A stretch of 64,000 bases of DNA. Origin: Puniceicoccus vermicola. GTDB lineage: Bacteria; Verrucomicrobiota; Verrucomicrobiia; Opitutales; Puniceicoccaceae. Positions within the stretch are counted from its first letter, which is position 1; every line of letters begins with the position of its first letter. Under the pieces are notes generated by a model. The model ran no database searches, was not told the origin of the DNA, and saw nothing but the letters and a program-made list of their open reading frames with translations. Location of the stretch: positions 1 through 64,000 of the forward strand of contig NZ_JACHVA010000086.1 of NCBI RefSeq assembly GCF_014230055.1. Reading direction: 5' to 3'. Shown here in pieces: positions 17,524 to 57,204 of the stretch. A program made the position numbers and the translations under genes.

Positions 17524-17552
17524 CCAAAGTAGTGAGAGCTTCCAGCTCTCTC
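17524..17552. repeat. solo copy of the 56.7-57.2 kb array hairpin
   Basis: AAAGTAGTGAGAGC from 17526, then GAGAGCT-TCC-AGCTCTC as a perfect hairpin (17534-17550), repeats the first half of the array unit at 56665-57172. It sits just after the trpF stop, in the 188 bp gap before a convergent hydrolase gene. It shows that the array unit also exists alone. Confidence 0.75.
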
Positions 17553-33035: not shown

Positions 33036-33234
33036 GTCTGGAGAATAAAAAAAGCGGGCCGAAACCCACTTTTTCCTAGTTGGTGTAAAGTGAAAAAGGA
33101 AGAGATTGATCAGCTCCCCCGCGGGAGTCAAGTCTGCTACTGGAACTCTTCCCGAACCGGGTGAAACTAGAAGTGCGGGGACTTCGCCTGGCGATTGCTG
33201 CCAAATTGTGAAAAAACCACGGAAAGGTTCAGGG

Positions 33235-33765
33235 GAGCGCGGTGCTTCCGTCCGCGTTTTCGGAGCGTTCTTTCGCGCACGCACGCAGGCTTACAGATTC
33301 GCCCTAGAAGTAGCCGCTCAGCTTTAGCTGCGCGGTCCTGCGATCACGGAAGGTCTTCCCCAGTAGGATCCGTCCGAGAAATCGCAATGGGGGCAGCTGA
33401 AGTTGAACCCCTACGGGAGCAGACGCTCAGCATTAGCTGCGCGGTCCTGCGGTAACGGAAGGTCTTCCCCAGTAGGATCCGTCTGAGAAATACGCAATGG
33501 GGGCAGCTGAAGCTGCACCCCTACGGGAGCAGACGCTCAGCATTAGCTGCGCGGTCCTGCGATCACGGAAGGTCTTCCCCGGTAGGATCTGTCTGAGAAA
33601 TACGCAATGGGGGCAGCTGAAGCTGCACCCCTACGGGAGTAGCCGCTCAGCTTTAGCTGCGCGGTCCTGCGATCACGGAAGGTCTTCCCCGGTAGGATCT
33701 GTCTGAGAAATACGCAATGGGGGCAGCTGAAGCTGCGCCCCTACGGGAATGGCCGCTCAGCCTGC
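33235..33765. repeat. tandem hairpin array 1, ~110 bp units with leader, in the nusA-ilvA divergent gap
   Basis: A leader (33235-33310) begins GAGCGCGGTGCTTCCGTCCG. It is followed by four units of about 108-110 bp; GCGCGGTCCTGCG recurs at 33331, 33439, 33549 and 33659, and a truncated fifth unit ends near 33765. Each unit carries two short hairpins in opposite orientation: one around AGCTTTAGCT or AGCATTAGCT, one around GCAGCTGAAGCTGC. The leader is shared with the element at 43793. No right terminal repeat is found, so the right end looks lost. Apart from these repeats, 33036-33234 holds no supported gene. Confidence 0.8.
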
Positions 33766-42730: not shown

Positions 42731-43243
42731 GTGCAGAGGAAACCGCATCCAGCAAAGGGAGGATTTACCCTCATCGAGATTCTCCTCGTGATCGCTCTCA
42801 TCGGTCTCTTGAGCGGATTCCTTCTCATGGATTGGGGAAATGTTGCCGATTCCTTTGGGCGCCGCGGCTGGAAGCAGTCGATGGAGGAGTCCTTTCGTCG
42901 GGCTCATTTTCTCGCCGAGACCGAAAATCGAAGGATTCGCCTGCGGTTCGACCCGGAGGAGCAACTCATGATCCTCGAGGACGCCGAAACTGGAAATCAG
43001 ATCGAAACAACCTCCCTCAACGGGGTAGAGAGTATCCGGCGTGTGGGGGGCGCGTCCTTAGGAAGAGGACTGGGGGAATTGCGCAGAGAACCATTTTTTG
43101 CGGTCCAATTTGGACGGGACGGGTCCGCGGAACCCCTTTATTTCGAAGTAATTCGCAATGGAGACCGCTCGATCTTCCAGAATCACCCGTTTTCGGGACG
43201 TTTATTGGGAGAGGATGAAGAAATCGGGCCGCTGATCCGTTAG
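42731..43243 (+). CDS. type II secretion/type IV pilus-like pseudopilin (GspH-like)
   Basis: The 170-residue product starts at a GTG with AGAGG just upstream. It has a prepilin peptidase site: KGGFTLIEILLVIALIGLLS, cleaved after the Gly-Gly and methylated at Phe, followed by the hydrophobic alpha helix. The rest is a beta-rich pilin head of the GspH/FimT size. No other secretin, ATPase or pilin gene is adjacent, so it is an orphan here. It lies divergent from the helicase gene and is followed by a strong terminator. Confidence 0.82.
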   Translation: MQRKPHPAKGGFTLIEILLVIALIGLLSGFLLMDWGNVADSFGRRGWKQSMEESFRRAHFLAETENRRIRLRFDPEEQLMILEDAETGNQIETTSLNGVESIRRVGGASLGRGLGELRREPFFAVQFGRDGSAEPLYFEVIRNGDRSIFQNHPFSGRLLGEDEEIGPLIR

Positions 43244-43342
43244 AAGAAAGTAAAATCGCCAGGTTTTCCCATAAAAATTCCGAATACCCCTCATTAATCT
43301 GAGTTTATTTGAACGAAATCCCGTCTCCACGGGTCTTACCCT

Positions 43343-43438
43343 ATGAAACCAACTTTTAACCGAGTTGTTCATCGTTTCAGTTTAGTTTGTTTTGTGCTCA
43401 AGCGCCCCACCACGTTGGTGGGGCGCTTTTGTGTATAG
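43343..43438 (+). CDS. possible 31-codon ORF or small RNA ahead of a terminator
   Basis: From the ATG at 43343 a 31-codon frame (begins MKPTFNRVVHRF) runs to TAG at 43438, through the terminator hairpin. A real protein would have to be read through that hairpin, so a short non-coding RNA, or simply the 3' end of the pseudopilin transcript, is more likely. There is no clear ribosome-binding site. Listed because it fills the gap 43244-43400. Confidence 0.15.
   Translation: MKPTFNRVVHRFSLVCFVLKRPTTLVGRFCV
43401..43430 (+). terminator. strong intrinsic terminator
   Basis: AGCGCCCCACCA (43401-43412), loop CGT and TGGTGGGGCGCT (43416-43427) form a perfect 12 bp stem followed by TTTT. It lies about 160 bp after the pseudopilin stop. 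Its stem is symmetric, but the T-run marks the plus strand. Confidence 0.85.
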
Positions 43439-43440
43439 AG

Positions 43441-43700
43441 CGTTCTCGCGTGACTTCAGTCGTGCGACTCCTGGGGCAGGAAACGTTCCCTAGAGAACCG
43501 AAACCTTATTGCGAGGCCGCAACCTCTCGGATCTCGGTCGCCGTGGGCAAGTATGCCGAATGACTAAAGTCAATCGGGAACGATTTTTGTTCTCGGATGA
43601 CTTTAGTCGTGCGACTCCCACGTCGGGAAACGTTCCCCAGAGATCCGAAACATCGCGGCGAGGCCGCAACCTCCCCGGATCGCAGGTAACTGAGCTCAGC
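43441..43700 (+). repeat. two copies of the ~145 bp GACTTTAGTC repeat
   Basis: GACTTCAGTCGTGCGACTCC at 43452 and GACTTTAGTCGTGCGACTCC at 43599 are 147 bp apart. Both are followed by a G-rich piece and GGGAAACGTTCCC or AGGAAACGTTCCC. Between them lies the array phrase GACTAAAGTCAATCGGGAAC. This matches the array at 46128-46693 in orientation and period. The gap to 43793 has no gene. Confidence 0.75.
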
Positions 43701-43792
43701 ATCTCTGTGTAGAGGGGGCGTCTCCAAGCGAGAGGCACGACAAGTGCAGAAGTTTCGTCACGAAATGATCTCATTTTACACGGCCTTTCCCG

Positions 43793-44406
43793 GAGCGCAG
43801 TGCTTCAGTCTGCGTTTTCGGAGCGTTCTTCTGCGCACGCACGCAGGCTTAAAGCTTCGACCAACAAAAAGTAGCCGCTCAGCTTTAGCTGTGCGGTCTA
43901 GCGGTTACGAAAGGCCCTTCAGTGTTCCGACCGAACAGACGCGATGGGGGCAGCTGAAGCTACTCCCCTACGAAAAGTAGCCGCTCAGCTTTAGCTGTGC
44001 GGTCCCGCGGTTACGAAAGGCCCTCCAAGGTTCCGACCGAACAGACGTGATGGGGCAGCTGAAGCTACTCCCCTACGAAAAGTAGCCGCTCAGCTTTAGC
44101 TGTGCGGTCCCGCGGTTACGAAAGGCCCTTCAGGGTTCCGACCGAACAGACGTGATGGGGCAGCTGAAGCTACTCCCCTACGAAAAGTAGCCGCTCAGCT
44201 TTAGCTGCGCGGTCCCGCGTTTACGAAAGGCCCTCCAAGGTTCCGACCGAGCAGACGCGATGGGGGCAGCTGAAGCTACTCCCCTACGAAAAGTAGCCGC
44301 TCAGCTTTAGCGGCGCGGTCTCGCGATCACGGAAGGTCTTCCCAGTAGGCTCAGTCCGAGAAATGCGCCATAGCAAATCGCAATCGCGGGCTAAAGCACC
44401 GCGCTC
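43793..44406. repeat. tandem hairpin array 2, five ~105 bp units bounded by 22 bp imperfect terminal inverted repeats
   Basis: The element starts GAGCGCAGTGCTTCAGTCTG (43793) and ends with the reverse complement of GAGCGCGGTGCTTTAGCCCG (ending at 44406). The 22 bp termini differ at four positions, all transitions. Inside, GTAGCCGCTCAGCTTTAGC recurs at 43871, 43977, 44082, 44187 and 44293 (spacing 105-106 bp). Each unit has two hairpins in opposite orientation, around AGCTTTAGCT and CAGCTGAAGCT. The leader matches array 1 at 33235. No protein is supported inside. The last copy's tail differs from the others and resembles array 1 units. Confidence 0.85.
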
Positions 44407-44539
44407 ACTCAATCTCTCCGGGGTGTCCTCTCAAGATGGCTGCGATTGCCAGTGAAGTTCCTGCTCTTCTGGTTGGTGTCAGCTCTGGTCCCCATGCAAC
44501 AAGAACCCTCGTGAATCGTCTCGAAGCAATAAGAATGGC

Positions 44540-44700
44540 GGTAATCTCCCGAGTCTCGGTCGCCGAGGGCGGGTTCGCCGAATGACTGAAGTCAATCGGG
44601 AACGGTTTTCGTTCTCGCATGACTTTAGTAGTGCGACTCCTACGGCGGGAAACGTTCCCCTGAGATCCGAAACATCCCGGCGAGGCCGTAACTGGTTTTC
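44540..44700 (+). repeat. one copy of the ~145 bp GACTTTAGTC repeat
   Basis: The phrase GACTGAAGTCAATCGGGAAC, then GTTCTCGCATGACTTTAGTA, GGGAAACGTTCCC and AGATCCGAAACATC follow the same order as at 43441-43700. It lies directly before the rmuC stop, in the gap of convergent genes. Confidence 0.7.
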
Positions 44701-44719: not shown

Positions 44720-46057
44720 TTACTCTTCGGACTCCAGCGACTTATCAATCCGATCTGAATCGAGTTCCTTCTTGGTTTTGAGTCCAAGGTCACGCATACG
44801 CTCGATGGTGCGGACGGCGTTTCCACGACCGGAGACCAACTTGTTCACGGCCTTTTCATGGGCGTTGCGAGCTTGGTCGAGGCGTTGGCCTACTTCATCC
44901 AGATCGTTGGTGAACCCGACAAACTTGTCGTAGAGTTCTCCCCCGAGACGGGCGATCTCCAGCGCGTTGCGGTTTTGTTTTTCCTGGCGCCAGATAGAGG
45001 CGACTGTCTTCAAGGTGGCGAGGAGGGTTGTTGGGGTGACGAGAACCACCTTTTTCGAAAATGCGTAGTCAAAGAGGGAGGAATCCTCCCGCAGAGCTTC
45101 GATAAAGGCTGGCTCGATCGGAATAAAAAGAAGGACGATTTCCGGTGAGCTCAGACCTTCGATGGCGTCGTAGCGTTTGCCCGAAAGTCCATCAATGTGC
45201 GATCGCAGGGAGGCGAGGTGGTCTTTGAGGGCAGCTTTCCGCTCGCCGTCGGTTGCCGCTTCGGTCACCCGAAGGTAGGCGGTCAACGATACCTTGGCAT
45301 CAATGATGATGTGTTTCTCTTCGGGGAGATAGACAATGACATCCGGTTGTAGGCGTCGGCCGTCCTGAGTATGACTCTCCTGAACGCGATATTCTTCCCC
45401 CTTTTGCAGGCCGGAGGTTTCGAGCACTTTCTCTAAAATAAATTCACCCCACATCCCCTGAGTTTTCTGCCCCTGGAGGGCGCGGGTCAGGTTGCGAGCC
45501 TCCTCGCTCATGCTGACACTGGTCTGGCGGAGGTTTTCCAGCTGGGTTTTGAACTCGGTCTGGTGGCTGATGCCTTGCTCCTTGAGTTCGAGGACCGACT
45601 TCTGGAAATCGACCAGCTTCTCGCTAACCGGTTTGAGGATGAGTCCGATCTTTTCCTCTTGGAGAGCGGTGACTTTTTTCGAATTTTGGTCGAGGATTCG
45701 ATTGGAGAGATTCTCAAACTCCTTCGTCAGCCTCACCGCTTCCTCTTCCCGCTGGGCCTTGTATTCATCGAGCCGGGAGCGTGAATTTTCCAGATCAGCC
45801 TCCATGGAAGAAAGGTTTTCACTCAGGGCCAAGATTCGACTCTGATCCCGCTCCCGCTGTTTTTCCAGCTCGGCGAGCCGCTGTTCCCGGTCTTCCAGTT
45901 GGGTCTGTTTGCGCACCGCTTCTTCTTTCCAGCGGGCCAATTCCTCCTCGGAGTCCGGATCCGTCGCGTTCGCGGAGGAAGACTTTCCGACAAAAAAGAG
46001 AGCGATCGCCAATCCGGCCATCACGAGAAGGAGCAGTATCACGTAAATCGGGTCCAT
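44720..46057 (-). CDS. rmuC: DNA recombination protein RmuC
   Basis: The 445-residue protein has an N-terminal membrane helix (VILLLLVMAGLAIALFFVG), a long coiled coil (about 35-170, LEDREQRLAELEKQRERDQS), and a C-terminal restriction-endonuclease-like domain. Family motifs are LQGQKTQGMWGEFILEKVLE, YLPEEKHIIIDAKVSLTAYL with the catalytic-type Asp/Lys, and VLVTPTTLLATLKTVASIWR. RmuC limits inversions at short repeats in E. coli. It is surrounded by the window's densest inverted-repeat DNA, which may be coincidence. Confidence 0.93.
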   Translation of the reverse strand: MDPIYVILLLLVMAGLAIALFFVGKSSSANATDPDSEEELARWKEEAVRKQTQLEDREQRLAELEKQRERDQSRILALSENLSSMEADLENSRSRLDEYKAQREEEAVRLTKEFENLSNRILDQNSKKVTALQEEKIGLILKPVSEKLVDFQKSVLELKEQGISHQTEFKTQLENLRQTSVSMSEEARNLTRALQGQKTQGMWGEFILEKVLETSGLQKGEEYRVQESHTQDGRRLQPDVIVYLPEEKHIIIDAKVSLTAYLRVTEAATDGERKAALKDHLASLRSHIDGLSGKRYDAIEGLSSPEIVLLFIPIEPAFIEALREDSSLFDYAFSKKVVLVTPTTLLATLKTVASIWRQEKQNRNALEIARLGGELYDKFVGFTNDLDEVGQRLDQARNAHEKAVNKLVSGRGNAVRTIERMRDLGLKTKKELDSDRIDKSLESEE

Positions 46058-46127: not shown

Positions 46128-46693
46128 CGTTCTCGCATGACTTTTCCGGCATGAGCTTGTCGAATGCAGTCGTGCGATTGCTGTGCATTGAATCGAAATC
46201 CGAGGTCCGGAAATCTGCCGCGTTGTCACGACCTCTCGCAGGTCGATGCCGAAGGCCAGTTCGACCGAATGACTAAAGTCAATCGGGAACGGCTTTCGTT
46301 CTCGCATGACTTCAGTCGTGCGATTTCCGCGCATGGAATCGAAACCGAGGTCTGGAAATCTGCCGCGTTGTCACGACCTCTCGAAGGTCGACGCCGATGG
46401 CCAGTTCGGCCGAATGACTAAAGTCAATCGGGAACGGCTTTCGTTCTCGCATGACTTTAGCCGTGCGATTTCCGCGCATGGAATCGAAACCGAGATCCGG
46501 AAATCTGCCGCGTTGTCACGACCTCTCGCAGGTCGATGCCGAAGGCCAGTTCGACCGAATGACTAAAGTCAATCGGGAACGGCTTTCGTTCTCGCATGAC
46601 TTCAGTCGTGCGATTTCCGCGCATGGAATCGAAACCGAGGTCCGGAAATTTGCCGCGTTGTCACGACCTCTCGAAGGTCGATGCCGAAGGCCA
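46128..46693 (+). repeat. tandem array of the ~145 bp GACTTTAGTC repeat (four units)
   Basis: GACTAAAGTCAATCGGGAAC recurs at 46271, 46416 and 46561 (exactly 145 bp apart). A fourth, divergent unit comes first (46128-46270); its hairpin is split by an extra 23 bases. Each unit contains GAACG-GCTTT-CGTTC, a GACTTCAGTC or GACTTTAGCC stretch, and a GACCT...AGGTC hairpin. The array fills the gap between the rmuC start and the comM stop. Open frames through it on the plus strand are products of the repeat. Confidence 0.85.
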
Positions 46694-46715
46694 GCAATCC
46701 GTCAATGGCCTCCAT

Positions 46716-56611: not shown

Positions 56612-56664
56612 GCCGTAAGGGCAAGACCGCTTCCCTAGCTAAAATTAAAAAAAAGCGGCGCAGC

Positions 56665-57172
56665 AAAGTAGGGAGAGCTTCCAGCTCTCTCCTTTCTGAC
56701 GCAAATCGAGAGCAAGATGCTCTCGCTACCTTCTCTTTACCCACCGCAAAAGTCCTACTCAGGCAGACTCACCAAAGTAGTGAGAGCTTCCAGCTCTCTC
56801 TCTCTTCCGACGCGAATCGAGAGCAAGATGCTCTCGCTACTTTCTCTTCCCACCGCAAAAGTCCTACTCAGGCAACCCAGCAAAGTAGTGAGAGCTTCCA
56901 GCTCTCTCCCTTCCGACGCAAATCGAGAGCAAGATGCTCTCGCTACTTTCTCTTCACCCACCGCAAGAGTTCTACCCAGGCAACCCAGCCAAAGTAGCGA
57001 GAGCTTCTAGCTCTCTCCCTTCCGACGCGAATCGAGAGCAAGATGCTCTCGCTACTTTCTCTTCCCCACTGCAATAGGTCTACTCAGGCAACCAAGCCAA
57101 AGTAGTGAGAGCTTCCAGCTCTCTCCTTTCTGACGCAAATCGAGAGCAAGATGCTCTCGCTAGTTTCTCTTC
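56665..57172. repeat. tandem hairpin array 3, five ~108 bp units
   Basis: GAGAGCTTCCAGCTCTC (a perfect 7 bp stem, loop TCC) recurs at 56673, 56782, 56890, 56999 (GAGAGCTTCTAGCTCTC there) and 57107, spacing 108-109 bp. Each unit also carries CGAGAGCA-AGA-TGCTCTCG, a second hairpin, and outer arms AAAGTAG...CTACTTT. Sequence differs from arrays 1 and 2 but the plan (two opposed hairpins, near-identical period) is the same. A solo first half lies at 17524. Gap between convergent glsA and the exchanger gene; no gene is supported in 56612-57204. Confidence 0.85.
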
Positions 57173-57204
57173 CCGCGACGGAGCAGGCTCCAAGCAGTAT
57201 TCAA

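Follow-up and report, generated by a model that had tools for sequence, protein, structure and literature searches.

The locus at 43793-44406 of the window, i.e., of the whole 64,000-nucleotide stretch of Puniceicoccus vermicola DNA analysed here, is very probably a nested cluster of RAYT-type repeats, in which a tandem array of REP doublets (family A) lies inside a REPIN of a second family (B), which is itself found at the centre of a larger host repeat (H). The genome (5.2 Mb in 143 contigs) belongs to the class Opitutia of the Verrucomicrobiota. No protein or Rfam family was found at 43793-44406, in agreement with an earlier note on this DNA that had seen no protein in it, and an Rfam scan of the whole window returned 0 matches. 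The features are listed in Table 1.

Table 1. Features of the composite locus, of the second composite in the window, and of their surroundings.
Feature	Position	Strand	Remarks
Left neighbour gene, with N-methylation (type IV pilin-like) motif	42731..43243	+	Convergent with rmuC
Family-C REP/BIME copies, left of the H/B/A composite	43448..43670	+	Core GACTTTAGTC
Host repeat H, right flank and arm (consensus positions 124-202), reverse	43737..43815	-	Alignment to H consensus
Family-B REP hairpin, GGAG tag	43792..43814	+	Left "terminal repeat" of the earlier note
B-REPIN loop and decayed second arm, GCAGGCTTAAAGC	43815..43862	+	Alignment with intact B-REPINs
Four tandem family-A BIME units (106, 105, 105, 106 bp)	43871..44292	+	GTAG-REP ... 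inverse REP-CTAC, linker GAAAA; hairpin folds
Fifth family-A unit, decayed	44293..44384	+	REP kept, inverse REP lost
Host repeat H, left flank and arm (consensus positions 6-103), reverse	44379..44474	-	Alignment to H consensus
Family-B REP hairpin, inverse orientation, TGAG tag	44385..44407	-	Right "terminal repeat" of the earlier note
Family-C copy, right of the H/B/A composite	44537..44692	+	87% identity to 43515-43670
Right neighbour gene, which we take to be rmuC-like	44720..46057	-	83% identity in G002, 69% in G001
Second H element in the window: left flank, B hairpin, loop	33160..33291	+	87% identity to H consensus
Second family-A array, 110-bp units, after the H/B left half	33310..33761	+	Right side truncated, without right B hairpin

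The units of the array start at 43871, 43977, 44082, 44187 and 44293. The earlier note had counted five units of ~105 bp, and the first four, which are 92-98% identical among themselves, bear this out; the fifth shows only ~63% likeness to them and no longer has an inverse REP, so that the array is composed of four units and a decayed relic, whose first half has more sequence in common with the array at 33310 than with the neighbouring units. The unit has the form GTAG-CCGCTCAGCTTTAGCTGTGCGG ... GGGGCAGCTGAAGCTACTCCCC-TAC, i.e., two GTAG-tagged imperfect hairpins, the second inverted, with the tags facing outward. The hairpins described before are real, given the good fold of the first (GTAG-CCGCTCAGCTTTAGCTGTGCGG) as single-stranded DNA (z = -4.2); folding of the second is weak (z -2.2), and the whole unit folds no better than its shuffles. 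Among 31 distinct genomic sequences of the first hairpin, nine of the ten stem pairs are preserved in 90-100%, and a single mismatch inside the stem is invariant. In the REPs of E. coli, the activity of TnpA-REP depends on a conserved mismatch of the stem (bulge), and the enzyme also reads the GTAG tag (PMC8266576).

As in the REPs of the GTAG superfamily, the tag is carried by both the REP and the inverse REP of family A, both of which are imperfect palindromes; families A and B each occur as dispersed copies, and the window locus is intergenic. The REPs alternate in orientation and the doublets follow one another in tandem, in four near-identical units, as they do in the BIME-2 and REPIN clusters. 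Judged from their sequence, then, the ~105-bp units are REP doublets (BIME/REPIN) arranged in a BIME-2-like array. The idea that an array within terminal repeats is foreign to a REP/BIME does not hold, since REP doublets are known to form tandem arrays in both BIME-2 and REPIN clusters (PMC2817692, PMC3116915), and the array is no argument against this assignment. The genome contains 70 matches to the A array, and the loci retrieved form at least 34 family-A clusters of 2-26 hairpins each, in both orientations. No family-A array was found in 34 related genomes, and the congener G001 and genome G002 likewise gave no A matches.

The earlier suggestion of a mobile-type, non-coding repeat served by a transposase encoded elsewhere is upheld in this part, and the candidate enzyme is a RAYT. 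The gene at C127:8083-8676 (RAYT-A) has, on reading of the DNA, two complete family-A doublets upstream and two downstream, and this flanking by REPs of one family in the same genome is the arrangement of a REPtron. Its product has the HUH and catalytic tyrosine regions and the TnpA-REP similarity expected of a RAYT, both regions being aligned with the E. coli TnpA-REP 4er8 (E=4.9e-5). RAYT-A is thus predicted to be, most likely, the cognate transposase of family A. It scores 68.7 against the NCBIfam model NF047646 (4.8e-19; curated cut-off 80) and 17.1 against Pfam Y1_Tnp (cut-off 23), and no ATG start lies near its N-terminus; given the scores below the curated cut-offs and the missing ATG, it may be divergent or inactive.

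A Pfam search of the genome gave 50 Y1 transposase matches, mostly of a ~320-aa family, and a first scan of these 50 loci found none with family-A flanks, the divergence of the cognate RAYT having put it beyond the reach of Pfam; RAYT-A was recovered by a protein search with a sister RAYT. Protein searches with two small RAYT-like genes revealed about nine small RAYTs, which repeatedly adjoin a family of their own: family-B hairpins flank the C92 RAYT, the C80 RAYT is embedded in tandem copies of its own repeat family, family-C copies stand on both sides of the RAYT at C127:41342-41941, and another is flanked by its own family "GTAGGCGCTGAAGCGACC". That each RAYT is linked to its own REP family is a known rule (PMC2817692).

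Several other observations were made on these genes and repeats. The larger Y1 transposase genes (~40 of ~320 aa; e.g., L028, L039, L050 and L066 in G000), mostly of 72-94% identity, form an expanded family with no A or B repeats adjoining. A family-C array with a 145-bp period and the core GACTTTAGTC occupies 46167-46694, and a family-D tandem array with a 108-bp period (GTAGTGAGAGCTTCCAGCTCTC) is present at 56661-57174, with one unit at 17529; family-D-like units also lie beside the C92 RAYT, and the reading frames upstream of the C16 RAYT resemble the family-D repeat. A congener RAYT (L236, G002:C39:18396-18953) is embedded in a tandem array of its own doublets, TTTGCTAAAGCTGCACGC ... GTGACGCTTCAGCGAACG.

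The surroundings of the array are explained by the host repeat. Alignment of the B-REPIN loci shows that many of them occupy the middle of a ~208-bp repeat, H, whose outer ends are GGTGYAACNAGAAGTGCGGGGACTT and its inverse, i.e., terminal inverted repeats of ~25 bp. The H consensus was found at 36 places in the genome, about a dozen of them near full length; no H element was found in the 34 related genomes, and G001 and G002 gave no H matches. The window locus is one reverse H (43737-44474), with the A array between its halves, 43737-43815 and 44379-44474; as the two B arms are the split centre of H, the A array lies inside the B-REPIN inside H, and the real outer ends at this locus are read from the alignment as those of H, at ~43737 and ~44474. 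The second array of the window (33310-33761) is likewise preceded by the left half of an H and a B-REPIN (33160-33291), and two further H copies are interrupted at their centre by different inserts (C127:18714-18843 and C76:82583-83064). In the latter (L274), the insert has the ends GAATGACACTAG/CTAGTGTCATTC and itself holds a second repeat with the ends AGCATATCCTTACA/TGTAAGGATATGCT, giving nested miniature elements.

On its form, H may be a MITE, and it is possible, if doubtful, that the mobile unit is H as a whole, which a DDE transposase would move together with its passengers, the B-REPIN and the A array. The ~20 copies with common outer limits point this way, as do the direct repeats of 8-9 bp that abut three of 12 H copies (GAAATAAG, CGGGGGAG, CCGATTCCG) and the words of at least 8 letters common to 4 of 12 own flank pairs, versus 3 of 132 mismatched ones. 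However, no duplication flanks the window copy, no autonomous partner of the H elements was found, and H ends were seen beside none of the Y1 genes. Most A arrays lie outside H, and H therefore fails to explain the array.

A second alternative, which is unlikely, is that the array is kept as a functional structure, such as a stabiliser of mRNA 3' ends, a terminator, or a site for gyrase or a nucleoid protein between converging genes. The position between the 3' ends of converging genes is the usual one for a REP, and gyrase binding to BIME-2 is known from E. coli (cited in PMC2817692). Against this, the congener G001 has a simple terminator-like palindrome and no repeats at this spot, another REP family occupies it in G002, and both unit number and family vary from site to site.

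The comparison with the congener also supplies the empty site that had been proposed as a check. The leader and terminator-like palindrome of window 43281-43430 are recognisable in G001 (85% over 78 bp; alignment score 113 versus a shuffle maximum of 34), and the palindrome is followed by rmuC after ~25 bp, versus ~1.29 kb of C, H, B and A repeats in the window; by this alignment, the G001 spot is an empty site. Beyond the palindrome, the left neighbour gene and the outer gene order look different in G001, so that a loss there is possible, and a gain in the window genome is likelier than a loss in G001, though not proven. By RmuC, the nearest named relative of the window genome is Opitutia bacterium UBA4506 (82%), also of the Verrucomicrobiota. 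Genome G002, which is probably UBA4506, was rejected as an empty site because the gene order beyond rmuC differs and a different GTAG doublet is present; this GTAG...CTAC doublet directly follows rmuC there (L101, 7337-7473).

The two composites of the window have the B-REPIN, the junction and the array in common, and the H flanks that adjoin them are opposite, which implies that one of the two has its B-REPIN turned round with respect to H; L223 and L224 suggest a similar inversion, and the edge of homology between the composites falls near the GGAG of the B hairpin. We give little credence to the reading that the B-REPIN and A array would form a compound cassette, which RAYTs of two families, by recognising the hairpins, could exchange between H elements or invert in one piece.

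It remains to consider the 22-bp pair itself, for which the earlier note had proposed the role of element ends. The inverted likeness described there is confirmed: 43793-43814 (GAGCGCAGTGCTTCAGTCTGCG) and the reverse complement of 44385-44406 (GAGCGCGGTGCTTTAGCCCGCG) match at 18 of 22 positions, the four differences all being transitions, and the likeness ends at the outer edge of the pair. For 300 random 22-mers from the window, no inverted partner as good as 18/22 was present 300-900 bp downstream, and the pair is thus not due to chance. A bounded, non-autonomous transposon, cut in trans at these ends and carrying the hairpin array as cargo, would account for this and for the same junction of left B hairpin and array in the second window copy, but it is very improbable in view of the behaviour of B elsewhere. 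The 23-bp B hairpin (GGAGCGCGGTGCTTTAGCCCGCG) has 27 genome matches at up to 3 mismatches, versus 0 for the reversed control pattern, and 24 of these have no A array next to them; in many cases, the hairpin and an inverted copy at 50-bp spacing make up a REPIN of ~73 bp with no array at all. Two of the 27 lie in the window at less than 100 bp from an A array (44385 and 33234), and two more, on C22, have A-like hairpins 130-700 bp away, so that the figure of 24 is conservative. The left hairpin at 43792 is an additional match, at 4 mismatches, and the decayed second arm at 43815-43862 gives it a partner of its own ~50 bp away.

The view from family A is similar. The earlier note had held that copies lacking the terminal repeats would speak against its reading, and such copies are the rule, as no B hairpin lies within 250 bp of 32 of the 34 A clusters; the two exceptions are both in the window, and B hairpins flank the array on both sides only at 43793-44406, since the second copy (33160-33761) has the left one and lacks the right. 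The target-site duplication that was expected next to the 22-bp ends is absent, and homology runs outward into H on both sides. The pair thus consists of REP hairpins of a separate family, B, and not of the ends of the array. The tags of this family are GGAG/TGAG at the window locus and GTAG/CTAC on the B-type doublets of G020, a genome from another family of the order that has the same B doublet; across the 34 related genomes, B-like sequence gave only short matches, in G020 and G024 (H query, one 24-bp match).

An assembly artefact of a metagenome bin is barely credible, even with 143 contigs and repeats that are risky to assemble, as point changes distinguish the units, an array of different units is present 10 kb away, and the other clusters differ in both unit sequence and length.

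Under the nested-cluster reading, RAYT-A (HUH/Y1) would disperse the A doublets by acting on single-stranded, GTAG-tagged hairpins, a role that we infer from the biochemistry of REPtrons in E. coli and Stenotrophomonas. One such doublet would have landed in the middle of an existing B-REPIN, itself the centre of the miniature element H, this order of insertion being suggested by the arrangement of the sequences, and tandem amplification, through either slippage or unequal recombination, would then have raised the number of units. The insertion of REPINs into existing REPINs has been reported (PMC3116915), as have REP dimers inside larger palindromes (PMC3733652).

The closest known systems are the BIME-2 of Escherichia coli and the tandem REPIN clusters of Pseudomonas fluorescens SBW25, which also present near-identical GTAG-type doublets of opposite orientation in intergenic positions, a RAYT gene flanked by the same doublets, and, by report, REPINs within REPINs (PMC3116915). 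Unlike these, the window repeats differ in sequence from the families as printed in the papers and belong to a verrucomicrobial (Opitutia) genome, where several REP families lie side by side. Opitutus terrae is presumably a member of the same class as the window genome. Its genome, of the same phylum, has been reported to be highly enriched in GTAG repeats (PMC3733652), and the likeness drawn here is in this enrichment. The B-REPIN in H also resembles the GTAG-15 dimers of Anabaena variabilis, in which a REP dimer is part of a longer palindrome (PMC3733652), whereas the window has a third repeat family inserted in the centre of the dimer. RAYT-A, for its part, aligns with TnpA-REP / RAYT (PDB 4er8) at the HUH motif (NHLHL) and the Tyr-containing motif, and differs from it in its longer N-terminal part and in its scores below the NCBIfam and Pfam cut-offs. 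The sequence families are therefore new, of known kinds, and the modest addition is the nesting in three layers.

These results document a multi-family RAYT/REP system, together with its cognate transposases and an empty site, in the poorly studied class Opitutia, and they illustrate how a repeat inserted inside the hairpin of another repeat can mimic a bounded transposon to the reader. Finally, with about nine small RAYTs and some 40 larger Y1 genes in one genome, this organism offers a natural case for the question of which RAYT reads which REP.
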